Assembly: GCA_020725525.1 (NCBI GenBank)
Contig: DYEX01000151.1
Location: 1 to 64,000 of the forward strand
Reading direction: 5' to 3'
Length of the DNA stretch: 64,000 bases
From: Desulfovirgula sp.
Lineage (GTDB): Bacteria; Bacillota; Desulfotomaculia; Desulfotomaculales; Desulfovirgulaceae
Shown: in pieces, positions 8,727-45,254 of the stretch
Layout: each line of letters opens with the position of its first letter
How positions within the stretch are numbered: the stretch's first letter is position 1
Made by a program: the position numbers and the translations under genes
The notes under the pieces: model-generated
What the model was told of the DNA's origin: nothing
The model's database searches: none
The model's input: only the letters and a program-made list of their open reading frames with translations

Positions 8727-9517
8727 GTGACCCCCTCCTTTTCCAAACTGTACATATAAGCCTGCAAATGGCCGTAAACTTTCTGGATCTCTCCGGTCTT
8801 TGGCAGGCAAGCGATAATCTTTTCCACGTAGCCGTTCCTGGCAATCTCCGAGAGCGAGCAGGGAAAGTTGATGTCGTAAATCCAGGAAAGCATGAGCAGT
8901 TTGCGGTCGTTAAAATTTTTCATGTCATCATAGTGGCAGAGTTGTTCTTGAAGTAAGTTTCGGACCAGGACCGGCGAATATCCCGGTGTATCGGGGAGGC
9001 CGGAAATCTGCTGCGCGTTTGGTTGATCGTTCCTACGGTCCAGGGAAGCGGTGAACATCTCCAGGATGTCCAGTTTATCTGCATCCCGGATCAGGCGGGC
9101 AAATAAAGAAAGGCGGCCCGGTAAATCCGGGGGCAACGTACACAGGTTATGATACTCGATGGCCTTCGTGATCAGGTTCCTTTCTTCTGCTGTTAGTGCG
9201 ACAAGCACCCCGGTCCGTTCCAGTTCGCGTATGCCCAGGAGCGCATGGTTTTCCGAACGCCGGTCGTTAAAAGTATGGTAGAGGGCAAACTGTTTGAAAC
9301 GTCCAATATCGTGCAGCAGGGCGATGGTTTCGGCCAGGTAAAGGTCTTCAGCCCCCAGGCTTAAAGAGCTTCCGATACGCAATATTTTCTCGCAGACCCT
9401 TTTAGTGTGCTCCTCCTTAAGCCTGATTCCTGCCTGAACGTCGGGGTCATCGTGGTAAAAATGCTTAACGTACTGGTTAAACCAGCCCTTTAAAGCCTGA
9501 AGCTGCTCCGCTTTCAA
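8720..9517 (-). CDS. HD-domain phosphohydrolase-like protein
   Basis: An HD-superfamily protein of 265 residues. Motifs in order: an early His in EEHTKRVCEKIL, the ALLHDIGRF doublet (HD), a middle EYHN and a late RDADKLDILE. These four give the metal site of HD phosphohydrolases that act on nucleotides or phosphoesters. The start is probably TTG at 9517, nine bases after AAAGGGGACGGG; an in-frame ATG at 9583 is possible but has no ribosome site. It forms a two-gene operon with the MBL hydrolase. Substrate cannot be read from sequence. Confidence 0.82.
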   Translation of the reverse strand: MKAEQLQALKGWFNQYVKHFYHDDPDVQAGIRLKEEHTKRVCEKILRIGSSLSLGAEDLYLAETIALLHDIGRFKQFALYHTFNDRRSENHALLGIRELERTGVLVALTAEERNLITKAIEYHNLCTLPPDLPGRLSLFARLIRDADKLDILEMFTASLDRRNDQPNAQQISGLPDTPGYSPVLVRNLLQEQLCHYDDMKNFNDRKLLMLSWIYDINFPCSLSEIARNGYVEKIIACLPKTGEIQKVYGHLQAYMYSLEKEGVTC

Positions 9518-31290: not shown

Positions 31291-32325
31291 GTGGCGAAGC
31301 AAATGTTAATTGATGCCATCCGGGGGAAGAGAACCCCGAGGGCACCGTGGGTTCCTTATGCCGGTGTCCACTGTGCCTTTGTGATTGGCGAACCGGCGGA
31401 CAAATTTCTAAAGGACCCGCAACTGCTTGCCAAAGGCGTGGTGGAAACGGCCAGGAAGTATAAGGCCGACGGGATTCCCCTGGTTTTCGATCTTTCCGTG
31501 GAGTCCGAATCCATGGGATTAGAAATCAAGTACTGGAAAGACAACGTCCCATCGGTCCAGTCTCACCCCTTATCCGACAAGACCGTGGAGGAGGCCGGCC
31601 TGAAAGTTCCGGGTCCCAACGACGGCCGCTGGCCGGTGCTTTTCGAGGCCGCCAGGATTGCCAAGCCCCAGCTGGACGAACTGGATTGTGCCTTAATGGG
31701 CCTTGCCTGCGGGCCGCTCACCCTGGCCAGCCACTTAGCTGGTGTGCGCATCTTCACTGATGTGGTCAAGAATAAGGAAAAGGCACATCATGTATTAAAG
31801 TTCTGTGCTCAAGTTGTCAAGAAGTCGGTGGAAATGTATTGCGACATGGACTGTGATATTATCGCCATCGTAGACCCGGTAGCCTCACAGATCCGGAACG
31901 AAACTTTCAAGGAGTTTGTTCACCCCTATTGCCAGGATGCCATCGCCGTCATTCATGAAAGAGGAAAGACATCCAGCTTCTTTATCTGCGGCGACGCCAC
32001 AAAGGTGTTGGAGTCCGTTTGTCAGATTGGCACCCACGGATTTGCTATTGACGAGCAGTTAAACCTGACTTTTGTGCGGGACCTGGCCAGGAAATACGGA
32101 GTTGGTTTTGGCGGCAACCTGAAGCTGACCCTGGCCATGTCTCTGGGGATTATTTCACCGCGGGAGGATGCCATTGTCAGCCTGGCTGCCGGTGGTACGC
32201 ACGGTTATGTGTTCGCCCCTGGGTGAGATATGCCCTATGATGTTCCGTTGGAACACATGGAGCAGATTCTGGAAGCCAGGGAATGGTTTGAAAAGTACTA
32301 TGCCAAGTATCCCGAGTCCTGGTAA
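31291..32325 (+). CDS. UroD-type (MtaA/CmuA family) methyltransferase, predicted selenoprotein
   Basis: A TIM-barrel methyltransferase of 344 residues if TGA at 32224-32226 is read as selenocysteine (residue 312). Without readthrough it ends at 311. The frame continues open past TGA for 33 codons, giving APG-U-DMPYDVPLEHMEQ and a TAA at 32323. The paralogue at 44202 has PSCDIWPTAPLENL at the same place, so Sec replaces the third zinc-ligand Cys of the HxCxnC metal site. The first ligand pair reads FFICGD, with Cys kept and His replaced by Phe. A hairpin (TGTTCC-GTT-GGAACA) starts 15 bases after TGA. GTG start follows GGGGGGGTAAAAT. Confidence 0.82.
32224..32255 (+). promoter_or_regulatory. 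Predicted SECIS element in the UroD-type gene
   Basis: TGA at 32224-32226, then a six-bp stem TGTTCC (32241-32246)/GGAACA (32250-32255) with loop GTT. The loop begins 21 bases after TGA and opens with G then U, as known bacterial SECIS loops do. Confidence 0.7.
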
Positions 32326-32339
32326 AGGGGGGGTAAAAT

Positions 32340-32744
32340 ATGTCCGAGCGGAAAATCAAGATAGATGTGCTTACCCTGGACAGCGTGCAGTGTGCCGCCT
32401 GTGGCTACATGATGGAATCCATTGCGGCCATGCCCCCCGATGTGCAGGAGATGATTGAATACAAGGAATGGTCCATTAAAAACCAGGCCGGCATTCAGAA
32501 GTTCCTGGAGCTCAATGGCCGGGTACTGCCTACAATCTGCATTGAAGGCGATCTGGTTTTCGAGAGCGTTATTCCCCAGTATGAAGAGCTGATTGATGAA
32601 CTGGCGAAAAGGGCCCCGACTCCCGAGATGCGCGAGCGGATACTGTCTTTACGTGATAAAGGCTTTGATTTCGATCGGATTAAAGAGAACCTGGAAAAAG
32701 CGGGCGCCGGTCTGCATACCAGAAGGGATTCTGCAGTTGAATGA
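32340..32744 (+). CDS. Thioredoxin-fold protein with CAAC motif
   Basis: A 134-residue thioredoxin-like protein. KIDVLTLDSVQCAACGYM holds the redox motif CAAC near residue 18, followed by the thioredoxin cis-Pro region (RVLPTICIEGDLVFESVIPQ). It is the Cys homologue of the two TGA-containing proteins at 36005 and 36310, sharing the EWSIKN..GIQKFLELN block with them, and adds a 45-residue C-terminal helical tail (TPEMRERILSLRDKG). ATG 32340 follows GGGGGGGTAAAAT, 14 bp after the UroD gene TAA, which supports reading that gene through its TGA. Confidence 0.85.
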   Translation: MSERKIKIDVLTLDSVQCAACGYMMESIAAMPPDVQEMIEYKEWSIKNQAGIQKFLELNGRVLPTICIEGDLVFESVIPQYEELIDELAKRAPTPEMRERILSLRDKGFDFDRIKENLEKAGAGLHTRRDSAVE

Positions 32745-33070
32745 AGTCGTTGCGTCTGGAACTAATCTACGCGGGGGATCACAACCTTTCATGCTACTAT
32801 GCCGCAAAGGTGGTAGAGGCTGTGGTCCCCCTTTTCCCCAACTTGCTTGACTGGAAAAAGGTATATATCAGGCAAAAAGAAGGCGCCCGGCGGTTTTATG
32901 AGCTTTCCGTTTCCCTGTACGGGGAGGAGGATGTGAGAAAACTACACTGTCACGCACCCATCCCGTCGATTTTTATTAACGGTGAGATGGTATTTGATCG
33001 CATACCGTCGGTGGAGGAACTGGCGCAGAGCATCGAAGATTTCATTTGCCGCGGGGGGAACGGAAAATGA
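32741..33070 (+). CDS. Thioredoxin-like protein, degenerate redox site
   Basis: A 109-residue thioredoxin-fold protein whose start overlaps the previous stop (ATGA). The region LELIYAGDHNLSCYYAAKVVEA keeps only one Cys where homologue 34807 has GDHCIPC, so it is not a normal dithiol oxidoreductase. HAPIPSIFINGEMVF is the cis-Pro loop. It overlaps the aquaporin gene by 4 bp. Monothiol or structural partner role is inferred. Confidence 0.75.
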   Translation: MKSLRLELIYAGDHNLSCYYAAKVVEAVVPLFPNLLDWKKVYIRQKEGARRFYELSVSLYGEEDVRKLHCHAPIPSIFINGEMVFDRIPSVEELAQSIEDFICRGGNGK

Positions 33071-33906
33071 GGGGGGATTACGGGCACAGTTTCGCCGGTG
33101 AATTGCTGGGCACCTTTATGCTGGTGTTTTTCGGGTGCAGCACGGTGGCTGTAACAGTGCTTTTTTCGGCCCATACAGGACTTTTTCAAGTGGCCGTGGT
33201 CTGGGGGATTAGTGTGACTCTGGCCATATATGCCACCCGGCATCTTTCCTGCGCCCATTTAAATCCGGCCGTCAGTCTGGCCATGGTCATTGCCGGCCGT
33301 ATGGACATGAGAAAACTGCCCGTATACTGGGTGGCCCAGTTAACTGGTGGTTTTCTGGCCGGTGCTGCCGTTTACGCCATTTTTTCCCCTTCCATGGCCG
33401 TTGTGGAAGCTGCCCGGCATATTGTGCGCGGTGCTCCCGAATCCGTGCTAACCGCCATGCTTTTCGGCGAATATTATCCCAATCCGTCTTCCCCCGTGAT
33501 CTGTTCTGTTTCTCCAGCGGGTGCTTTTGCGGTGGAAGCTCTGGGTACCTTCTGGCTGGTGTTAATTATTTTCGCTCTGACGGAAGGATGCAATGTGGGT
33601 CGGCCTTCCAGCGACGTAGCGCCCATTTTAATCGGACTGACCGTAACTGTTCTGATCAGCATTTTTGCTCCCCTGACCATGGCTGGATTCAACCCTGCCC
33701 GGGATTTCGGCCCCAGGTTGTTTGCCTTTCTGGCCGGTTGGGGGAAGGTGGCCATTCCCGGTCCCCGGGGTGGTTTTTTCACCATATATATACTTGCCCC
33801 TTTGGTAGGCGGTTCTTTGGCATCCCTGTTGTTCCACAAGCTGCTGGAGCCCTTGATGCGCGGTAAGCACGGCGCTTGCAGTTGCAAGGATCATTTTTCC
33901 CTGTAG
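33067..33906 (+). CDS. MIP-family channel (aquaporin/glycerol facilitator-like)
   Basis: A 279-residue membrane channel with six helices and two half-helices. The two signature loops are AHLNPAVSL and AGFNPARDFGPR (NPA boxes). TM1 is FAGELLGTFMLVFFGCSTVAV. The Asp in the second loop (NPARDFGPR) is the position used to separate glycerol facilitators from water channels. The C-terminus has GACSC. It is co-translated with the preceding thioredoxin-like gene, so it may carry a small neutral solute used or made by this cluster; identity unknown. Confidence 0.88.
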   Translation: MRGDYGHSFAGELLGTFMLVFFGCSTVAVTVLFSAHTGLFQVAVVWGISVTLAIYATRHLSCAHLNPAVSLAMVIAGRMDMRKLPVYWVAQLTGGFLAGAAVYAIFSPSMAVVEAARHIVRGAPESVLTAMLFGEYYPNPSSPVICSVSPAGAFAVEALGTFWLVLIIFALTEGCNVGRPSSDVAPILIGLTVTVLISIFAPLTMAGFNPARDFGPRLFAFLAGWGKVAIPGPRGGFFTIYILAPLVGGSLASLLFHKLLEPLMRGKHGACSCKDHFSL

Positions 33907-33965
33907 CATGGTACGGGTGTAATCCGGGTGATATTAAGAAAGCAACGCCGGAAAGGAAGATGAAA

Positions 33966-34235
33966 ATGGGAAACAGGGTGAGCATACTGGTCTTTGGCAC
34001 CTCACCTCCATGCCAGAAATGCCTGCAGGCCGAAAGGGAGGCCCGGCAGGCGGCGGCCCAATTTCCTCCGGGAGAGGTGACGGTGGAAAAACAGGACGCC
34101 CTTTCGGAAACAGGACAAAAATACGGGGTCATGATCACTCCCGCCGTGGTGATAAACGGCAGGATGGTGGCTGCCGGCAGGTTGCTTACGGAAACGGAAC
34201 TGGTGGAGCTGATCAAGAAAGAGAGGGGGGATTGA
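33966..34235 (+). CDS. Thioredoxin-like protein with CQKC motif
   Basis: An 89-residue minimal thioredoxin fold: SILVFGTSPPCQKCLQAE with redox motif CQKC, then GVMITPAVVINGRMV with cis-Pro before a valine. ATG 33966 lies six bases after AAAGGAAG; ATG 33960 is also possible. It follows the MIP channel and is one bp before the next thioredoxin-like start. Such 80-90 residue redoxins reduce disulfides or selenenylsulfides in partner proteins. Confidence 0.82.
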   Translation: MGNRVSILVFGTSPPCQKCLQAEREARQAAAQFPPGEVTVEKQDALSETGQKYGVMITPAVVINGRMVAAGRLLTETELVELIKKERGD

Positions 34236-34236
34236 C

Positions 34237-34509
34237 GTGCTCGTTAAAATGGAGGTCTTCAGCGGTAATCCTCCCTGTCCCGGGTGCCTGGAGATGATCA
34301 AACTTTGTGAGGCAGTGGCCGGCGAATACGGAGGGGAAATAGATTTTAAAAAGTATGTGGGTGAAGAGGGGCTGGAGAAGTTTAACGAATACAACATGTT
34401 CTGCGTCCCGGCGGTGGTGATCAACGGTTATATCAAAATCGAAGGGGTTGTACCCACCCGTTTTACCCTTTTGAACGCATTGAGGGAGGGTGGATTATGT
34501 CTAAAGTAA
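34237..34509 (+). CDS. Thioredoxin-like protein with CPGC motif
   Basis: A 90-residue redoxin, KMEVFSGNPPCPGCLEMIKL, with CPGC near residue 14 and YNMFCVPAVVINGYIK as cis-Pro loop; an extra Cys precedes the loop. GTG 34237 follows GAGAGGGGGGATT. It overlaps the next redoxin by 13 bp in another frame. The cluster contains several of these domains as separate genes, which suggests a relay. Confidence 0.82.
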   Translation: MLVKMEVFSGNPPCPGCLEMIKLCEAVAGEYGGEIDFKKYVGEEGLEKFNEYNMFCVPAVVINGYIKIEGVVPTRFTLLNALREGGLCLK

Positions 34510-34760
34510 GCATTGAGGCCTTTTTGTCCGTCCCACCCTGTTCCGGTGGCATTGCCCTGTCCCGGTTGCTGGAGGGTATCCAGAGGGAATTTGGCGAAAA
34601 GGTGGCCATAACTATTCACAGGGGGCCGACCCCTCGCCTGGAGGAACTGAAAATATCCGCCACCCCAGCTATAATTGTGGGCGACCTGGTCAGAATCATG
34701 GGCGTATGTCCCGACAGGGAAACGGTTGTGGCCGCCCTGCGGGAATGCGGGATTATGTAA
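34497..34760 (+). CDS. Thioredoxin-like protein with CSGG motif
   Basis: An 87-residue homologue with VSIEAFLSVPPCSGGIALSR: the second Cys is replaced by Gly, giving a single reactive Cys. The position corresponds to the TGA of the protein at 36310 (UASG). KISATPAIIVGDLVRI is the cis-Pro loop. Start ATG 34497 after GAGGGAGGGTGG overlaps the previous gene. Confidence 0.78.
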   Translation: MSKVSIEAFLSVPPCSGGIALSRLLEGIQREFGEKVAITIHRGPTPRLEELKISATPAIIVGDLVRIMGVCPDRETVVAALRECGIM

Positions 34761-34806
34761 AAGCCTGCTGCCGGCACTGTAAAGGCAGGCCCGGGGAGTG
34801 GAAAGG

Positions 34807-35100
34807 GTGAGGCCTATCCTTATCGAAATCATCTATGAAGGCGACCACTGTATCCCTTGCGTTTATATGCTTGAAACCGTGGAAGAGGCCATAGGCGATA
34901 TGACGGACAGGGTTAAGCTGGAACTGGTCTACCTACGGCAGGAAGCGGGCGGCCGTCGTTACAAGGAGCTGTCGGAAGGGCTGGGCGGGCCGGCTCCCAT
35001 CCCGTCCATTTTCATCAACGGAAGGTTGTATTTCGGCACCACACCGCCGGTGGAAGAGCTAAAACAGACCCTGCAGGGGCTCTTACAGGCGGGTGAATAG
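34807..35100 (+). CDS. Thioredoxin-like protein with CIPC motif
   Basis: A 97-residue redoxin: ILIEIIYEGDHCIPCVYMLE with CIPC near residue 17, and APIPSIFINGRLYFG as cis-Pro loop, in the same subfamily as the degenerate one at 32741. GTG 34807 is placed by GGGGAGTGG; GTG 34798 also fits. It ends four bases before the TSCPD-phosphoesterase start. Confidence 0.82.
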   Translation: MRPILIEIIYEGDHCIPCVYMLETVEEAIGDMTDRVKLELVYLRQEAGGRRYKELSEGLGGPAPIPSIFINGRLYFGTTPPVEELKQTLQGLLQAGE

Positions 35101-35103
35101 TTC

Positions 35104-35988
35104 ATGTATATATACAAGACCAGGGGGATTTGTCCGCCCGAAATCCACTTTCAACTGGCGGGGAATATCCTGACCGGCGTGAGGTTTGTGGGCGGGGGCT
35201 GCCGGGGCAACGCCCAGCTCATCAGCCGCCTGCTGGAGGGCCGGGAGCTAAGTGAAGTGCTCCCCCTTCTGAAAGGAATTCAATGCCGGAATGACACATC
35301 CTGCCCCGACCAGCTGTTCCAGGCCATCCAGTTGGCCCGGGAGGGGAAGCTCAGGGAAGAGGAGCCGATCACCGTTTATGAAGCTCCAGCGTACTATCAA
35401 AGGGTAGCGGTAATTGCCGAGGTAAACGGAAATGTTGAGGCATTGCGGGTAGCGTTGCGCCAGCCTGTTGAAGCCGTTTTCTGCCTGGGCAACCTTACCG
35501 GTCCGGCAGGGGACAACGACGGGGTGGTTGAAATGGTGCAAAGGGAGAAGTTGGTTTTTGTACAGGGTCCATTTGACCGTACTCTCCCCTGTACCAAACC
35601 GGAGAATCGAGAATTTCTCCGGCGGGCACCCCTCTATCTGCGGTTTCAACTGGGGCGGTGCCGTGTCCTGGGGTTTTACAGCGGTTTTATCCAGGAATTA
35701 AGCGGCTTTTCGGATTATGCCCCCTATTCCCTGGAGTTGCTCATGGTGAGCAATCTATCCGACTACTTGCGCAATGAGAGCGTCTTTTCCGCCCTGGAAG
35801 CCATGACCGAACAGTTTTCCGTCGATTTGGTTCTCTTTGCTTCTACCAATGAGTGGAAACATGTACGCCTGGGTAAAGTGGACTTCATTAACGTGGGTCC
35901 TCTAAAAGAGGACGGCCAGTTTAAATACGCCTTGCTGGAGTGGGCGGGGGAAGAATTACAGGTTTCCTTTGAAACGGTGAAGGAATAG
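35104..35988 (+). CDS. TSCPD domain fused to a metallophosphoesterase-like domain
   Basis: A 294-residue two-part protein. Residues 1-85 match the small TSCPD/TIGR03905 family: YKTRGICPPEIHF, FVGGGCRGNAQLISRLLEG, and the signature DTSCPDQLFQAIQ with LKGIQCRN before it. From about residue 97 (RVAVIAEVNGNVEALRVAL, CLGNLTGPAGDN) a YfcE/calcineurin-like fold follows, but the DxH and GDxxD metal motifs are degraded (VIAEVNGN, LGNLTG), so phosphatase activity is doubtful. The TSCPD domain occurs in some ribonucleotide reductases and alone. Combined role unknown. Confidence 0.68.
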   Translation: MYIYKTRGICPPEIHFQLAGNILTGVRFVGGGCRGNAQLISRLLEGRELSEVLPLLKGIQCRNDTSCPDQLFQAIQLAREGKLREEEPITVYEAPAYYQRVAVIAEVNGNVEALRVALRQPVEAVFCLGNLTGPAGDNDGVVEMVQREKLVFVQGPFDRTLPCTKPENREFLRRAPLYLRFQLGRCRVLGFYSGFIQELSGFSDYAPYSLELLMVSNLSDYLRNESVFSALEAMTEQFSVDLVLFASTNEWKHVRLGKVDFINVGPLKEDGQFKYALLEWAGEELQVSFETVKE

Positions 35989-36004
35989 CGGGGAGGGAAG
36001 GGAC

Positions 36005-36283
36005 GTGCGCCGGGTACTGGTGGATGTATTGCTGACCGATTTCCGGCAATGAGCGGCCTGCGTCTACATGGCGGAAGCGGTAAAGGCTTTACCGCAGGAA
36101 ATTAAGGACATGATCGAGGTCCACGAGTGGGACATGAGGACGCGGGAAGGAATAAAACGTTTCCTGGAGTTAAAGGCAAAATCACTGCCCAGCATTGCCC
36201 TGGACAACGAACTGGTTTTTGAAGCCGTTATTCCGCCGCAGGAGGATTTGATCGCGGCCATTAAAGCAAGATATGCCGGTTAG
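36005..36283 (+). CDS. Thioredoxin-like predicted selenoprotein (UAAC)
   Basis: A 92-residue redoxin if TGA at 36050-36052 is Sec: VLVDVLLTDFRQ-U-AACVYMAEAV. The frame is open from GTG 36005, which follows GGGGAGGGAAGGGAC, to TAG 36283, with strong alignment on both sides of TGA to the CAAC protein at 32340 (DVLTLDSVQ-C-AACGYM; FLELKAKSLPSIALDNELVFEAVIPPQ against FLELNGRVLPTICIEGDLVFESVIP). Sec is the N-terminal, nucleophilic residue of the redox motif. A hairpin GCGGTAA...TTACCGC follows. Gene callers would report only the ATG 36068 fragment. Confidence 0.83.
36050..36095 (+). promoter_or_regulatory. Predicted SECIS element, first thioredoxin selenoprotein
   Basis: TGA (36050-36052), then stem GCGGTAA (36077-36083)/TTACCGC (36089-36095) with loop AGGCT, extendable by A84-T88. 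The apical loop starts about 32 bases after TGA and carries GG, within the spacing of bacterial SECIS elements. A matching hairpin with a base-pair change is at 36376. Confidence 0.7.
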
Positions 36284-36309
36284 TTCTGGCGCAGGGGTGT
36301 GGGAAAATT

Positions 36310-36585
36310 ATGTCAAAGGTTATTGTGGAGGTATTGCTCACCGACCAGTGAGCGTCCGGGCCGTATATGGCCGAAGCGGTAAGGGCCTTACCGCAGGAAA
36401 TACAGGACGGCATTGAAGTGTTTATCTGGAATGTGAAGACCCTGGAAGGAATCAACCGCAAACTGGAACTGGGGGCCAGGGTCATACCTGCCATTGCCCT
36501 GAACAACGAGGTGGTTTATGAGTCCACCATTCCTCCCCAGGATGAGTTGATTGCCGCCATTTTAAAATGCAAAGATAATTTTTAA
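36310..36585 (+). CDS. Thioredoxin-like predicted selenoprotein (UASG)
   Basis: A 91-residue paralogue of the previous gene: KVIVEVLLTDQ-U-ASGPYMAEAV with TGA at 36349-36351, ATG 36310, TAA end at 36585. After TGA the frame aligns residue by residue with the protein at 36005 (AEAVRALPQEIQDGIEV; IPPQDELIAAI). The second active-site Cys is replaced by Gly (UASG), so this would be a mono-Sec redoxin. The cis-Pro region RVIPAIALNNEVVYEST is intact. Confidence 0.8.
36349..36394 (+). promoter_or_regulatory. Predicted SECIS element, second thioredoxin selenoprotein
   Basis: TGA (36349-36351), then stem GCGGTAAG (36376-36383)/CTTACCGC (36387-36394) with loop GGC. Loop start is 33 bases after TGA, essentially the same spacing as in the paralogue. 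A G-C pair replaces the A-T pair at the stem top, a compensatory change that argues for RNA selection beyond protein conservation. Confidence 0.72.
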
Positions 36586-36609: not shown

Positions 36610-37581
36610 GTGTATTTGCAGGAAGTTACCTTAACCGGTTTTAAATCCTACGCCACGGAAACGGTGGTTAATTTTAAGTCCGGCATTGGAGTAATCATCG
36701 GTAATAATGGCGTGGGCAAAACAAATGTACTGGATGCCATTGCCTGGGCCGTGGGCGAGAGCGATCTGCAGCGGTTGCGCTGCCAGCAATACGGGGACCT
36801 GTTTTTCAGCGGGTCGCAGGAATACCCTCCGGCGGAAACGGCCAGGGTGGCCCTGACCATTAAGCTAGGTGAGGATAAAAAAGCCCCGCAGGTTAAGTTG
36901 ACCCGGCAGGCCCGCCGCCAGGGAACGGAAGAATTCTTCTGTGACGGGGCTGAGCTGACGGCCGCAGGTTATTACCAGAAATTAACCGAACTGGGACTGG
37001 AAAATGTTACAAAAACAGTGATCCGGCAAGGGCAGGTGGAAAACTTTCTGCAGCTGGGACCCGCGGATCGGTTTAGATATGTGAAAGCACTGTTCAATGA
37101 AAAGGTGGATGGAGGTCTAATCGGCAGGATTAACGCCCATTTCAAGAATTTCTTGAGCATACTTGTCCCGGAGGGAGGGGGCGAGCTGTTCCTGGTTGAT
37201 ACCAGTGGTGAACCCGGCCTGGCCGTTGAAGTCGTTTTTCCTGGAAAAGGAAGAAAGAACCCGCTCCTTCTTTCCGGCGGTGAGAAAACCATCTGTTCGC
37301 TGGCCGCCAATCTGGCCCTTTTTGAGGAATTGCAGAGCCCCTTTTACCTGTTGGACGAAGTGGAGCCCGCCCTGGATTGGATTTATCACCACCATATGCA
37401 GCAGCTATTCAAGAAGCTGGCCCGGAACAGGCAGCTGATCATGATCACCCACTTGCGAAGCACCATTGAACTGGCTGATACCCTGCACGGGATTCGCGCC
37501 CGCAGGGACGGCACCTCCTACGCGAAGTTCTACTTTGACATGGACGAACGTATCCTAAGGGCTTACCAATGTTGTTGTTAA
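36610..37581 (+). CDS. SMC-type ATPase head without coiled coil
   Basis: A 323-residue protein with both halves of an SMC/Rad50-like ABC head joined directly. N-half: YLQEVTLTGFKSYATETVV, Walker A GNNGVGKTN (31-39), IRQGQVENFLQLGPADRF (Q-loop region). C-half: LLLSGGEKTICSLAANLALF (signature), PFYLLDEVEPALD (Walker B) and MITHLRSTIEL (D/H loop). Between the halves, where SMC proteins carry hundreds of coiled-coil residues, there are only about 60. It is not a fragment: both motif sets are intact and in frame. GTG 36610. The C-terminal YQCCC is odd. It ends within the next gene's leader. Confidence 0.8.
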   Translation: MYLQEVTLTGFKSYATETVVNFKSGIGVIIGNNGVGKTNVLDAIAWAVGESDLQRLRCQQYGDLFFSGSQEYPPAETARVALTIKLGEDKKAPQVKLTRQARRQGTEEFFCDGAELTAAGYYQKLTELGLENVTKTVIRQGQVENFLQLGPADRFRYVKALFNEKVDGGLIGRINAHFKNFLSILVPEGGGELFLVDTSGEPGLAVEVVFPGKGRKNPLLLSGGEKTICSLAANLALFEELQSPFYLLDEVEPALDWIYHHHMQQLFKKLARNRQLIMITHLRSTIELADTLHGIRARRDGTSYAKFYFDMDERILRAYQCCC

Positions 37582-37913: not shown

Positions 37914-38936
37914 ATGGCTGACTTCACAGACGTTTATCTCATTACCGGGTTTTTGGGCAGCGGCAAAACCACTTTTTTGAACCGTCTCATCCGCCAGTTT
38001 CCCAGAAACCGGAAATTGATGGTACTAATGAATGAGTTTGGTGAAATTGGCGTTGACGGTACGCTGGTGGCCGGTGAAGACCTGGATATCCTGGAAATCA
38101 GCAAGGGGTCCATCTTTTGCGCCTGTGTGAAAACGGATTTTATCAAGGGCCTTTACGAGATTGCCCAAAAAATCAAGCCGGACATTTTGTTGATTGAATC
38201 TACCGGTGTGGCCAATCCCGTTGACCTCAAAAAGGACCTGAACCTGCCCATATTTAAGGGCCGTTTTCAGTTTAAAGAGCAGTTTTGCATTATCGATGCG
38301 GCCAACTTCCTGGATGCCTTCCAGGTCTATGCTTCGGTGGAAAAGCAGATATCCTCCTCCACCAGATTTATTATCAACAAGATCGACCTGGCTTCCCGGG
38401 AGCAGGTTGAAGAAATAAAAAATCTCGTAAAAAAGTACCACCCCGATCCCCATTTTTACGAGGCAACATATGCCGATATAAACGTGGCCGAGCTTTTATC
38501 TTTGGAGCAGCCGCTTGAAAGCGCGAGGTATGAACCGGGGCGGCCAATGAGCGAAGAGGAACTGGAACGGTACGTGGAAGAGCTGTTGTCCGATATTCAT
38601 GAATCCCTTACGCCCCCCGACCTGCTAATGTCTGCAACCTTTTTCTGGAAGGGAGGCACGCCATCCGATCTGCGGGAAATGACGGCCCGGTTACCCCGGG
38701 AAGTGCTCCGGGCAAAGGGCTTTGTGCAAATAGAGGGCCGGCTTCACCTGTACAACTATGTGATGGGCCAGTGCAGCATTGAGATACAGGATGTGCCGGT
38801 GAAGGAGAACCAGATCAATGTGCTGGTCTTTATTGCCCCGCCGCAAATAATGCCGGCAGTGGAAAAGCTCATGGGCGATTTTAACTTTGTGAAAACGGGG
38901 GAAATCAACCGCCAGGAATTTTTTCAAAAGCGGTAG
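37914..38936 (+). CDS. CobW-family (G3E) GTPase, second copy
   Basis: A 340-residue CobW-type GTPase, more canonical than the one at 27327. ITGFLGSGKTTFLNRL is the P-loop, LMNEFGEIGVDG the second signature, GSIFCACVKTD gives the CxC metal motif, LLIESTGVANP the Walker B and FIINKIDLA the base-recognition motif. A C-terminal CobW_C-like domain (FFWKGGTPSDL..., FVQIEGRLHLY) follows. Role likely metal or cofactor delivery to nearby enzymes. ATG 37914 after GGGGGGGGAAACC. Confidence 0.87.
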   Translation: MADFTDVYLITGFLGSGKTTFLNRLIRQFPRNRKLMVLMNEFGEIGVDGTLVAGEDLDILEISKGSIFCACVKTDFIKGLYEIAQKIKPDILLIESTGVANPVDLKKDLNLPIFKGRFQFKEQFCIIDAANFLDAFQVYASVEKQISSSTRFIINKIDLASREQVEEIKNLVKKYHPDPHFYEATYADINVAELLSLEQPLESARYEPGRPMSEEELERYVEELLSDIHESLTPPDLLMSATFFWKGGTPSDLREMTARLPREVLRAKGFVQIEGRLHLYNYVMGQCSIEIQDVPVKENQINVLVFIAPPQIMPAVEKLMGDFNFVKTGEINRQEFFQKR

Positions 38937-40163: not shown

Positions 40164-40829
40164 ATGACACCTGAAAGGGAAAAGGACATTCTGGGGAGAC
40201 TGGCCGAGGGCGTGCTCAATTACGATGAGGAAATGGTGCGCCAGGCGGCCCAGGAGGCACTGGATGAAGGGATGGACGCAAATAAGGCGGTTTTTGATGG
40301 ATTGGTGGCCGGTATGAAGGAAGCAGGTGACTTGTATGAAAAACAGGAGTACTTTGTCCCCGAGCTTCTCATGTGCGCCGATGCTTTGTACGCCGGGCTG
40401 GAAATACTCCGTCCGCATATGAAATCAACGAAAGAAGACGGCGGGGTAAAAGGCCAGGTGGTCATGGGAGTAGTGCAGGGAGACGTGCACGATATCGGCA
40501 AAAACCTGGTGAAGATCATGTTCGAGGCAGCCGGTTTTGAGGTGCACGACCTGGGTAAAGACGTGCCTTTAGAAAAGTTTGTGGAGGAACAACTGAAAAC
40601 TGATTCGGAGATTGTGGCCCTCTCGGCCATGATGACCACCACCATGGTGGGCATGAAAGATGTTATTAAAGCTATTAAGGAGAAAAACCCCAAGGCCAAG
40701 ATCATGATTGGCGGCGCTCCGGTGACCGATGAGATTGCCGACCGTTTTGGCGCGGATGGTTATGCCAAAGATGCCAGCAACGCCCTGAAGGAAGCCATAA
40801 ACATGATCGCTTCTTTGAGAGAGTTGTAG
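40164..40829 (+). CDS. Corrinoid protein (MtaC/MtvC-like), copy 3
   Basis: A 221-residue methyl-carrier protein, first gene of a likely O-demethylase operon. Cap: ILGRLAEGVLNYDEEMVRQA, GLVAGMKEAGDLYEKQEYFVPELLM. B12 domain: VVQGDVHDIGKNLVKIMFEA with the cobalt-ligand His, LSAMMTTTMVGM, MIGGAPVTDE. ATG 40164 follows AAAGGAGAATGGGAA. It is the closest of the three copies to a reductive activator (40848), so this pair likely work together. Confidence 0.94.
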   Translation: MTPEREKDILGRLAEGVLNYDEEMVRQAAQEALDEGMDANKAVFDGLVAGMKEAGDLYEKQEYFVPELLMCADALYAGLEILRPHMKSTKEDGGVKGQVVMGVVQGDVHDIGKNLVKIMFEAAGFEVHDLGKDVPLEKFVEEQLKTDSEIVALSAMMTTTMVGMKDVIKAIKEKNPKAKIMIGGAPVTDEIADRFGADGYAKDASNALKEAINMIASLREL

Positions 40830-40847: not shown

Positions 40848-42797
40848 GTGCAGCACCAGGTAATCTTTCAGCCTTCCGGCCGCCGGGGAATGGTGGAGCG
40901 AGGCATCACCCTGCTGGAAGCGGCCAGGGAACTGGGTGTGGACATTGAAAACCTCTGTGGCGGCGCCAAGGTCTGCGGCAAATGCAAGGTAAAAATCGAA
41001 GAGGGTTTTTTTGAAAAATTCGGCATCGACTCCAGCATGGATCATCTTTCTCCGCTTCAGGAGGAAGAAAGGGATTGCCTTACCGAAGCGGAACTGGCGG
41101 ACAATTACCGCCTGGCCTGCTGCTGCGAAGTGCTGGGGGATGTACTGGTCTTCGTGCCCGAAGAAAGCAGGGGAGCCAAGCAGGTGGTGCTGGAAACCGG
41201 CAAGGAACGGAAATTTAACCTGAACCCGGCCGTACGCAAGTATTATGTGGAAATGCCGGAAGCTACCCTGGAGGACCACCGGGGGGATTTCGAGCGCCTG
41301 CGGGAAGCCCTTCATGAGCAGCATGGCCTGCCGGCGGACCTGGAAATCGACTATTTTGTGCTGCGGGACCTGCCCAATGCGGTCCGGGAAGGCCAGTGGA
41401 AGGTCACGGCGACCGTTTGGAACAACCGGGAAATTATCCGGGTAGAGCCCGGAATGAAGGATACCCTGGTCGGCCTGGCCGTAGATATTGGTACCACCAC
41501 GGTGGCCGCTTACCTCTGCGATTTGCGCACCGGCCAGGTGCTGGTGGTGGACTCCATGATGAACCCCCAGGTGCGCTACGGCGAAGATGTGCTCTCCCGG
41601 ATTACCTACTCCATGATGAATGAGGACGGCCTGGAGAAAATGCACCAGGCCATTATCGAGGGGCTGAACACCCTGGCCCAGCGCATGACCGAAAAGGTCG
41701 GGCTTTTGCCCACCGATATCATGGACATGACCCTGGTCTTTAACACCGCCATGCAGCATATCGCCCTCTGTATTGATCCCAAATTCCTCGGCCGTTCTCC
41801 TTTTGCTCCGGGGACCAAGCAATCAAGGAACATCAAGGCCCGGGATCTGGGCGTTAACATCTGCCGCGCGGCCATCATCCATACCCTTCCCGTGGAATCG
41901 GGCTTTGTCGGTCCGGACAACGTGGCCGTGCTCATTGCCGAGGAACCTTACCGGGAACCGGAGAAAATCCGCCTCATCATTGACATCGGTACCAACGGTG
42001 AAATCGATCTGGGCAACGAAAAGCGCCTGCTCTGCACTTCCTGCGCCACCGGCCCGGCCCTGGAAGGGGCCCAGATCAAGTTCGGCATGCGTGCCGCGCC
42101 GGGAGCCATTGAAAAGATACGTATCAACCCCGAAACCCTGGAGGTTTCCTACAAGGTCATCGGGCAGGAGCAGTGGTACCCGGAAATTCAAAAAACTGAG
42201 GCCAAAGGCATTTGTGGTTCCGGGATTATCGATATGGTGGCGCAGCTGTTCCGTTCCGGCGTCATCGATCGCTCCGGCCGGTTCAACATGAAGATCAATC
42301 ACCCCCGGGTCCGCCGCGGTGCCGACGGTAAACCGGAGTTTGTGGTGGCCTGGGCCGAGGAAACGGCCATTGGCAAGGATATCACCTTTACCCAGGGGGA
42401 CGTGCGCGCAGTGCAGCTGGCCAAGGCGGCCCTTTATGTAGGTGCCAAATACCTGATGGAGAAGCTGGGCGTGGATAGGGTGGACAGCGTAACCCTGGCC
42501 GGTGCCTTTGGCAGTTACATCGACCGGGAAAGCGCCATGGTCATCGGCATGTTCCCGGACTGTGATCTGGAAAATGTGCAGGCTGTGGGTAACGCCGCCG
42601 GGGACGGCGCCAAGCTGGCCCTTTTGGATGTAGGCAAACGGGAAGAGGCGGCCTGGATTGCCCGGCAGGTGGAATTTGTGGAAACGGCCATTGAGCCGGA
42701 CTTCCAGACCCGTTTTGCCGCCGCCATGGCCCTGCCGCACTCAACGGATAAGTTCCCCCACATCCAGCATATTCTGGATGCCATTCCCAAACGCTAA
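40848..42797 (+). CDS. Reductive activator of corrinoid protein (RACo/RamA-like, ASKHA)
   Basis: A 649-residue ATP-dependent activator that re-reduces inactive Co(II) corrinoid to Co(I). N-terminal [2Fe-2S] domain: CGGAKVCGKCK with a further ACCCE at about residue 88-92. The linker is followed by the actin-like ASKHA ATPase: LAVDIGTTTVAAYL (phosphate 1), LIIDIGTNGEIDLGN, VTLAGAFGSYID (adenosine). Size and order match O-demethylase activating enzymes and RACo; RamA of methanogens has 4Fe-4S clusters instead. GTG 40848 after GGGAGGATGAAG. Confidence 0.92.
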   Translation: MQHQVIFQPSGRRGMVERGITLLEAARELGVDIENLCGGAKVCGKCKVKIEEGFFEKFGIDSSMDHLSPLQEEERDCLTEAELADNYRLACCCEVLGDVLVFVPEESRGAKQVVLETGKERKFNLNPAVRKYYVEMPEATLEDHRGDFERLREALHEQHGLPADLEIDYFVLRDLPNAVREGQWKVTATVWNNREIIRVEPGMKDTLVGLAVDIGTTTVAAYLCDLRTGQVLVVDSMMNPQVRYGEDVLSRITYSMMNEDGLEKMHQAIIEGLNTLAQRMTEKVGLLPTDIMDMTLVFNTAMQHIALCIDPKFLGRSPFAPGTKQSRNIKARDLGVNICRAAIIHTLPVESGFVGPDNVAVLIAEEPYREPEKIRLIIDIGTNGEIDLGNEKRLLCTSCATGPALEGAQIKFGMRAAPGAIEKIRINPETLEVSYKVIGQEQWYPEIQKTEAKGICGSGIIDMVAQLFRSGVIDRSGRFNMKINHPRVRRGADGKPEFVVAWAEETAIGKDITFTQGDVRAVQLAKAALYVGAKYLMEKLGVDRVDSVTLAGAFGSYIDRESAMVIGMFPDCDLENVQAVGNAAGDGAKLALLDVGKREEAAWIARQVEFVETAIEPDFQTRFAAAMALPHSTDKFPHIQHILDAIPKR

Positions 42798-42811: not shown

Positions 42812-43747
42812 GTGTTTAAACTGAACCGTCCCCAGCGGGTGTGCCGCATCGGCCGGTGGAACATTGGGGGACAGCCCGGGGAAAACCCGCCCCTGCTGAT
42901 TTCCTCCATGTTTCATAACGGCGATAAAATTCTGGAATCCCGCAAGGAGAGGAAATTTAACCGGGAAAAGGCCACGGAGTACGTAAAACGACAGGAAGAG
43001 CTTTCGGCCCAGACGGGCATGCCAGCCCTGGTGGCCATGGTGGCCACTTCTCTGGACGAGATGAAGACCTACATTGACTTTTTCCTGAGCATCAGCGACC
43101 AGCCCTTCGGGATCGACATGTGGGTGGAGAAAACGCGGCTGGAAGTGGCGGAATACATTGCGCAGTTGGGTATCCAGGACCGGGTGCTGTACAACAGCAT
43201 CACTCCCTGGGACAAGGACATCCCCGGCCAGGTGGCCCGCCTGAAGGAACTGGGCATCAAGCACGTGGTGGTCCAGGCCTTCAACCAGGAAGACCAGACC
43301 CCCAAGGGGCGGGTAACCGGTCTCAAAAAGATGCTGGACATCATTGGGGAAGATACCTTTGACACCATCCTGGTAGATACTGCGGTAATGAACCTGCCCT
43401 CCACCTCTTTCTCCTGTATTGCCAGCCGGATGGTTAAGGAGGAGTTTGGCTGGCCCGCCGGGGTAGCTTCCTCCAACGGCACCTACATGTGGAAGGCGGC
43501 CCGGGAAATGTGGGGTAGCGACGGCTTTAACGCCATGAATGCCGCCGGCCAGGCCATTGCCGCCCTGCTCTGGAGCGATCTGCTGTTCACCGGCCCCATC
43601 GTTAACATTCCGAAAATTATCCCTGCCGTCACCACCGCCAGTCTGATGCTGGCAACCCTGGTTTACGACGAGACGGGTAAATTGCCGTCCAACCAGGAGC
43701 ACCCCCTGTACAAATTCTTTGCAGACTTTGTGAAACAGCTGCAGTGA
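42812..43747 (+). CDS. MtrH-family methyltetrahydrofolate:corrinoid methyltransferase
   Basis: A 311-residue TIM-barrel methyltransferase of the MtrH family (N5-methyltetrahydromethanopterin:CoM methyltransferase subunit H in methanogens; methylTHF transferases in bacteria). It contains the RIGRWNIGGQPGENPPLLIS start, the MWVEKTRLEVAEYIAQ section and VDTAVMNLPSTSFSCIAS. In O-demethylase systems this is the MT II enzyme that passes the methyl from the corrinoid to tetrahydrofolate. GTG 42812 after AAAGGAGGAG; ends 46 bp before the PNPOx-like gene. Confidence 0.87.
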   Translation: MFKLNRPQRVCRIGRWNIGGQPGENPPLLISSMFHNGDKILESRKERKFNREKATEYVKRQEELSAQTGMPALVAMVATSLDEMKTYIDFFLSISDQPFGIDMWVEKTRLEVAEYIAQLGIQDRVLYNSITPWDKDIPGQVARLKELGIKHVVVQAFNQEDQTPKGRVTGLKKMLDIIGEDTFDTILVDTAVMNLPSTSFSCIASRMVKEEFGWPAGVASSNGTYMWKAAREMWGSDGFNAMNAAGQAIAALLWSDLLFTGPIVNIPKIIPAVTTASLMLATLVYDETGKLPSNQEHPLYKFFADFVKQLQ

Positions 43748-44201: not shown

Positions 44202-45254
44202 ATGTCCATGAAACCGCGGGATAGGGTTCTGGGTCTTTTTGAAGGAAAAGAAGTAGACCGCATGGCCTGCTACAGTGGTATGGGCAACGTGACCACGGCA
44301 GGCCTGGAGCAACTGGGTTACAAGTTTGCCGAAGTGCACACGGATCCGGTGAAAATGGCCAATTCGGCGGCCACTTCCTACAAGCTGTTTGGTTATGAGT
44401 GTGCCGTCGTTCCCTATGATATGTGCGTGGAAGCGGAGGCCCTGGGCTGCGTCATGAACGCCTATGAGGACGTGGCGCACCTGTTGTATCCGACCATCAA
44501 GGAGAAGCTGATCCACTCCCCCGACGAAATGACCAAGGTAACCATTCCGGACAATATAGCCGGGCGGGGCCGGTTTCCCCTGGTGATGGAGGCCATTTCC
44601 CTGCTCAAAAAAGACATTGGCGATGAAGTGGCCATCGGTTCCTGGTTTTTAGGTCCCTTTACCCTGGCCGGCCAGCTGATGGACTTGAACGACCTGTTCA
44701 AGCTGGTCTTTAAAAAGCCCAATGAAGTGAACATTTTACTGGACAGGCTGGCCGACCTGATCATCACCATGGCCGCCAGATACCGGGAGGCCGGGGCGGA
44801 CTACATCACCATCCGGGAAATGGGCGCCCCCACCGATGTGCTCAGCCCGCGGAGCTTCCGCCAGGTCATCAAACCGCATCTGGAGAAGATCTTTAAAAAC
44901 ATTCCGTCACCAAAAATCCTGCACATTTGCGGGGATACCAACCTGATTATCGGCCTCATGAACGAGTGCGGCGCCGACGCCATCAGCGTGGAGACGAAAA
45001 ACGACCTGGCCAAGAGCCGGGCCACCATCGGTTCTGAACCGCTGCTCTTCGGCCACATAGACGGATATAACGTCCTCTGCAACGGGACGCCGGAAGACGT
45101 AGAGAAAGCCGTCCTGGCCAGTATCGAAGGCGGCGTGGACGCCGTATGGCCGTCCTGCGACATCTGGCCGACCGCTCCTCTGGAGAACCTGCGAGCTATG
45201 GTGGATACGGTTAAGAAATACGGTGCGGAAAAATGGGCTCGCAAGAACAGGTAA
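44202..45254 (+). CDS. UroD-type (MtaA/MtvB-like) methyltransferase
   Basis: A 350-residue TIM-barrel zinc methyltransferase. KPRDRVLGLFEGKEVDRMACY is the usual start. The zinc site is complete: LHICGDT (His and Cys) and PSCDIWP (third Cys near residue 323). As the only UroD enzyme in the operon with corrinoid protein, activator and MtrH enzyme, it is the best candidate for MT I, which demethylates the methyl donor. Methoxylated aromatics are typical donors in this enzyme family but the real substrate is unknown. AAGGAGGTTACCCC precedes ATG 44202. Confidence 0.88.
   Translation: MSMKPRDRVLGLFEGKEVDRMACYSGMGNVTTAGLEQLGYKFAEVHTDPVKMANSAATSYKLFGYECAVVPYDMCVEAEALGCVMNAYEDVAHLLYPTIKEKLIHSPDEMTKVTIPDNIAGRGRFPLVMEAISLLKKDIGDEVAIGSWFLGPFTLAGQLMDLNDLFKLVFKKPNEVNILLDRLADLIITMAARYREAGADYITIREMGAPTDVLSPRSFRQVIKPHLEKIFKNIPSPKILHICGDTNLIIGLMNECGADAISVETKNDLAKSRATIGSEPLLFGHIDGYNVLCNGTPEDVEKAVLASIEGGVDAVWPSCDIWPTAPLENLRAMVDTVKKYGAEKWARKNR

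Follow-up and report, generated by a model that had tools for sequence, protein, structure and literature searches.

Small thioredoxin-like (Trx-like) selenoproteins carrying selenocysteine (Sec) at the first active-site position are represented by the published HUIPC family, taken here as defined by NCBIfam model NF047660 and a review (PMC13188914). The SAO system also includes a Trx-like selenoprotein, SaoT, and several selenoproteins are encoded in each of the SAO and Tso operons (PMC13188914). UroD-family methyltransferases are found together with a corrinoid protein and a reductive activase in the Type 1 mlp gene clusters of selenium-using anaerobes (PMC10418091).

Here, we describe an analysis of a 64,000-nucleotide stretch of DNA from the sulfate-reducing bacterium Desulfovirgula sp. 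(contig DYEX01000151.1; hereafter the window), in which a cluster that looks like a corrinoid methyl-transfer operon contains two adjacent genes, trxU1 and trxU2, with a single in-frame TGA in each (Table 1). We show, by comparison of related loci, that these TGAs are conserved, that they are followed by predicted SECIS hairpins, and that the genes co-occur with those for a methyltransferase, a corrinoid protein, RACo, MtrH and CobW. On this evidence trxU1 and trxU2 almost certainly encode Sec at their TGAs, and it is highly probable that they do so in the setting of a corrinoid methyl-transfer operon.

Table 1. Features of the trxU1/trxU2 cluster, in window coordinates
Feature	Position	Strand	Basis or remark
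MtaA-like (UroD/MtaA) corrinoid methyltransferase, putative selenoprotein, 344 aa	31291..32325	+	alignment, predicted structure; ordinary calling ends at 32226
Predicted Sec codon UGA of methyltransferase (APG-U-DMPYD)	32224..32226	+	aligned with Cys of MtaA 4ay7; Cys in seven homologues
Predicted SECIS hairpin of methyltransferase, TGTTCC-GTT-GGAACA	32241..32255	+	retained with Sec, lost with Cys
trxA, Cys paralogue (QCAAC)	32340..32744	+	locus comparison; regularly beside methyltransferase
trxB, Trx-like, HUIPC-related, Cys	32741..33070	+	NF047660 88.3 bits (cut-off 105)
MIP/aquaporin channel	33067..33906	+	PF00230
trxC, Trx-like, CQKC	33960..34235	+	Thioredoxin_3
trxD, Trx-like, CPGC	34237..34509	+	Thioredoxin_3
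trxE, Trx-like, CSGG	34497..34760	+	weak Thioredoxin_3
trxF, HUIPC family member, Cys form (HCIPC)	34798..35100	+	NF047660 118 bits (cut-off 105)
TSCPD-domain protein	35104..35988	+	TIGR03905/PF12637
trxU1, predicted Trx-like selenoprotein, QUAAC, 92 aa	36005..36283	+	TGA kept in relatives; AlphaFold Trx fold
Predicted Sec codon UGA of trxU1	36050..36052	+	aligned with Cys of QCAAC in trxA
Predicted SECIS hairpin of trxU1, 8 bp, loop GGC	36077..36095	+	folding and covariation
trxU2, predicted Trx-like selenoprotein, QUASG, 91 aa, without resolving Cys	36310..36585	+	conserved in Desulfotomaculia; monophyletic
Predicted Sec codon UGA of trxU2	36349..36351	+	aligned with Cys of trxA
Predicted SECIS hairpin of trxU2, 8 bp, loop GGC	36376..36394	+	folding and covariation
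Short SMC-like ATPase	36610..37581	+	PF02463
CobW-type GTPase	37914..38936	+	PF02492; near-universal methyltransferase neighbour (73/80 loci)
Corrinoid protein	40164..40829	+	TIGR02370-like
RACo-type corrinoid reductive activase	40848..42797	+	PF14574
MtrH-type methyltransferase	42812..43747	+	PF02007

Results

With TGA translated as Sec, trxU1 reads VRRVLVDVLLTDFRQ-U-AACVYMAEAVKALP... (core FRQ-U-AACVYM) and trxU2 reads MSKVIVEVLLTDQ-U-ASGPYMAEAVRALP... (core TDQ-U-ASGPYM). A first-pass annotation of this DNA had placed both TGAs at the first redox Cys of the CAAC homologue at 32340, the paralogue trxA (DSVQ-C-AACGYMMES), and alignment agrees, setting QUAAC and QUASG against QCAAC. The similarity that it had claimed on both sides of the TGA is likewise found, since the proteins are colinear with trxA on either side, with 45% identity for trxU1 and 41% for trxU2. 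The predicted trxU2 protein is not a classical dithiol thioredoxin, because its UxxG motif is missing the resolving Cys. An AlphaFold model of trxU1 (pLDDT 93.4) has thioredoxin topology. The active site lies where helix 1 begins, with residue 16 immediately ahead of helix 17-27; a conserved Pro precedes the third strand, and Pro62 is invariant.

Each TGA is followed by the stem that had been described as GCGGTAA/TTACCGC; it is present in both genes, but at 8 bp it is one pair longer than described (GCGGTAAA-GGC-TTTACCGC in trxU1 and GCGGTAAG-GGC-CTTACCGC in trxU2, at -8.5 and -10.2 kcal/mol). Its distance from the TGA, previously called nearly equal between the copies, is identical, with the stem beginning after 24 nt and the loop lying at 32 nt, and the loop-closing pair does change from A-U to G-C. 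Both hairpins satisfy the published bacterial SECIS constraints (8 bp, GGC loop, 32 nt). Taken singly they are only moderately unusual: synonymous-codon shuffles were as good as the real hairpin in 56 of 2000 cases for trxU1 and 22 of 2000 for trxU2, and 4% and 2% of random window positions, respectively, were equally stable, so that a single hairpin of this kind is not rare. The covariation proposed from the two copies extends over 37 aligned sequences, in which 93.6% of pair cells are paired, two-sided changes occur in 30 cells at four pairs, and the covariation score is matched by none of 500 shuffles. When the partners are slid by 1-3 columns, pairing falls to 27-49% and no slid version reaches that score. 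Six to eight of the 8 pairs are kept in the Sec genes versus one to five in the Cys paralogue trxA; a few trxU1 hairpins are weak (L059, L070 and L081). It is this comparative signal, not the single hairpins, that is decisive for the candidate SECIS elements.

A search of 60 genomes for trxU1 recovered the gene with the same TGA in seven genomes, the window's own counted, all of one order. With a wider collection of loci, the TGA is present in about 29 distinct trxU1 loci from two phyla, in Desulfotomaculia and Desulfobacterota, with no case of Cys in place of Sec and no normal stop followed by an unrelated ORF. The Cys homologues that the first-pass annotation had suggested looking for are represented by the paralogue trxA but not by any sequence inside the trxU1/trxU2 clade of our tree; the Cys/Sec pairing for these genes rests on paralogues, since the clade contains no Cys orthologue. 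The relatives belong to Desulfofundulus and Desulfotomaculum. In the wider collection trxU1 also occurs in Desulfovirgula and many Desulfobacterota, and Pelotomaculum contributes trxU2 alone; all trxU2 (QUASG) sequences seen were from Desulfotomaculia. In two genomes of the same genus (G001 and G002) trxU1 has no match, and the gene is therefore variable within the genus. A detached extra copy of trxU2 (L051, 9977-10168) is C-terminally shortened and reads NUAPG, with its TGA retained and all 8 bp of the hairpin intact.

The selenium machinery, which the first-pass annotation had named among the things to look for, is encoded in the same genome: selA adjoins selB (C102:38586-41887), a tRNA-Sec(UCA) gene lies at C59:13719, and selD has an in-frame TGA of its own (AAG-U-AAK). 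Among 23 cluster-bearing genomes tested, 22 have selA; the sole exception is a Spirochaetaceae MAG, which has a Cys-type methyltransferase.

Alignment and hairpin conservation indicate that the MtaA-like methyltransferase is the third selenoprotein of the cluster, one that the first-pass annotation of the pair had not listed, in which Sec would take the place of a presumed metal ligand. Its reading frame runs 32 residues past the TGA, and 74 homologous rows, from 73 distinct loci, share the predicted Sec. Seven homologues have Cys: L090 is 65% identical, and those from Desulfosporosinus, Lachnospiraceae and Spirochaetaceae are about 34% identical. Of the 7 pairs of the hairpin, 20 nt downstream, Sec forms retain 5-7 and Cys forms 1-4. 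Two further genomes have both forms. One (L138) carries Sec (APGUDMPYDVP) and Cys (APGCNMPYHVP) copies, at 9034 and 15571, in a single cluster that also contains two Trx-like selenoproteins with motifs UMPC and UIPC; in the other the two forms lie on separate contigs (L141 4423 and L142 8279).

The predicted structure of the methyltransferase has the UroD/MtaA fold (TM 0.85 and 25% identity to MtaA 4ay8). In the alignment with MtaA 4ay7 its Sec falls on the Cys of LAPGC, a residue that together with the HxC motif binds zinc in MtaA. Instead of HxC...C the window protein has Phe-x-Cys...Sec, and the His is replaced by Phe (Leu in two) in every family member in which the motif was found. The protein falls short of the MtaA and MtbA equivalog cut-offs (104.7 of 400 bits and 83.9 of 600 bits), and its score stays below the cut-off of every NCBIfam model. 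A second UroD/MtaA-like methyltransferase in the window, at 44202-45254, retains ordinary HxC...C ligands (HICG, WPSC). In a general scan for in-frame TGAs that close relatives share, hits in antisense and shadow frames overwhelmed the signal; under a stricter filter 32224 was the only plus-strand site left, minus-strand hits also remained, and the TGAs at 36050 and 36349 were missed, probably because of their short left flanks.

By family assignment, the neighbouring genes supply the components expected of a corrinoid route for methyl transfer to tetrahydrofolate. Across 80 loci, many of them truncated, the methyltransferase family was counted in 79, trxA in 74, the CobW GTPase in 73, the corrinoid protein in 46, RACo in 45 and MtrH in 27; trxU1 was counted in 34 by family match, a few Cys relatives included. 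Eight small Trx-like genes are packed into about 4.2 kb at 32340-36585, with the aquaporin gene inside the array, and their motifs are CAAC, LSCYY, CQKC, CPGC, CSGG, CIPC, UAAC and UASG. The SMC-like ATPase is very short (323 aa), matches mainly the ends of SMC proteins, and adjoins the selenoprotein pair in the examined relatives of the order. A plasmid search gave one distant match only.

Discussion

UGA in trxU1 and trxU2 is almost certainly decoded as Sec through SelB, tRNA-Sec and a SECIS hairpin with its loop 32 nt downstream. Sec would thereby take the attacking position of a Trx-like active site, UxxC in trxU1 and the monoselenol UxxG in trxU2. The pair sits in what looks like a conserved corrinoid methyl-transfer operon, the central methyltransferase of which is also predicted to contain Sec, and in which a methyl group may pass from a methylated substrate via the corrinoid to tetrahydrofolate. 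The Trx-like selenoproteins could be dedicated partners of this route, for example keeping a Cys233/Sec312 site of the methyltransferase reduced, or could alternatively carry an intermediate that is thiol-reactive or bound to a metal. On the simplest account, the Trx-like (seleno)proteins would serve the methyl-transfer machinery as reductants of its thiol/selenol site or as selenol carriers, and the chances that the Trx-like selenoproteins are its redox or selenol partners seem about even. We regard as tentative, and rather unlikely, a more specific proposal of a selenium-based methyl-transfer machine, in which the zinc-ligand His has been lost, the methyltransferase has a Cys233/Sec312 pair, and dedicated Trx-like selenoproteins service it; Cys233/Sec312 would then form a redox-active selenenylsulfide or an unusual metal-selenolate site.

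It is doubtful that the Trx-like selenoproteins function instead in the chemistry of organometals or metalloids, where in the manner of SAO they would bind methylated Hg, As or Se or remove the methyl groups, rather than giving redox support to methyl transfer. The monoselenol of trxU2 is ill-suited to dithiol exchange, which would fit such a role, as would the presence of SaoT in SAO (PMC13188914) and a weak SaoT match to trxD; yet no SaoB, SaoC or SaoL-type gene occurs among the window proteins scanned, and the conserved partners are corrinoid methyl-transfer proteins.

We consider it improbable that trxU1 and trxU2 are plain members of the HUIPC family. They resemble HUIPC proteins as small Trx-like (seleno)proteins with Sec at the first active-site position in the same operons, and among NCBIfam models NF047660 fits them best, with hits to all 27 aligned members. 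However, their scores (46 bits for trxU1 and 29.3 bits for trxU2) are below the cut-off of 105, their motifs are of the types QUxAC and QUASG rather than H-[UC]-I-P-C, and genuine HUIPC proteins share the operons, as trxF in the window and as a Sec form in L104 (127 bits). In a tree built on few columns, the CAAC/UAAC/UASG clade is set apart from the HUIPC rows at 100/99 and trxU2 is monophyletic at 100/98, the other forks being less certain. Membership was rejected on score and tree; because of the scores, the separate clade and the co-occurrence of true HUIPC proteins, the pair is placed by these comparisons as a sister group of HUIPC.

It is very hard to credit that the TGAs are real stops, each ending a short leader peptide ahead of an unrelated or N-truncated ORF from ATG 36068 or ATG 36367. 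A mechanical ORF list does begin at exactly these two ATGs, 3' of the TGAs, as the first-pass annotation had foreseen for ordinary gene calling. The likeness to the Cys paralogue nevertheless runs through the TGA, which is fixed over the trxU1 loci, and truncation would remove strand 1 and the active site from the predicted fold. Moreover, the purine run GGGAGGGAAGGGAC lies upstream of GTG 36005, the trxU1 start, and inspection of the sequence before the internal ATGs found no Shine-Dalgarno-like run. Genome-wide reassignment of UGA to Trp or Cys, to which the existence of in-frame TGAs would lend itself, was rejected as next to impossible, being contradicted by UGA as the terminator of 22 of the 60 long ORFs in the window, where it is otherwise an ordinary stop, by the presence of tRNA-Sec, SelA and SelB, and by SECIS hairpins that follow the recoded UGAs and are lost in Cys forms.

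Ordinary ORF calling shortens all three proteins, with loss of their catalytic residues, and in public sulfate-reducer genomes the cluster is therefore likely misread. Neither of the two Trx-like clades is covered by the curated NCBI family models. Novelty was checked against a 2026 catalogue, NCBIfam and a collection of open-access papers. The catalogue, with its 119 prokaryotic selenoprotein families, lists neither a UroD/MtaA family nor a corrinoid methyltransferase whose Sec replaces a presumed metal ligand (PMC13188914), and no Sec-containing UroD or MtaA family was found in that collection of papers. The putative Sec methyltransferase poses a testable question, namely the part played by selenium in methyl transfer.

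Among solved structures, those nearest to the pair by sequence are the MJ0307-type thioredoxins (1fo5, 1nho; weak E-values of 9e-5 and 8e-4), which, unlike the pair, carry Cys and not Sec. The methyltransferase shares its fold with the methylcobalamin:CoM methyltransferase MtaA (4ay7/4ay8), and its Sec sits at the third zinc-ligand Cys of MtaA, from which it differs in having Sec for that Cys and Phe or Leu for the HxC His. The cluster as a whole resembles the Type 1 mlp gene clusters (PMC10418091) in that selenium-using anaerobes combine a UroD-family methyltransferase with a corrinoid protein and a reductive activase but, by gene content, differs in having MtrH, CobW, many Trx-like proteins and a predicted Sec in the methyltransferase. 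With the SAO and Tso operons (PMC13188914) it has in common several selenoproteins per operon, although these belong to different protein families.
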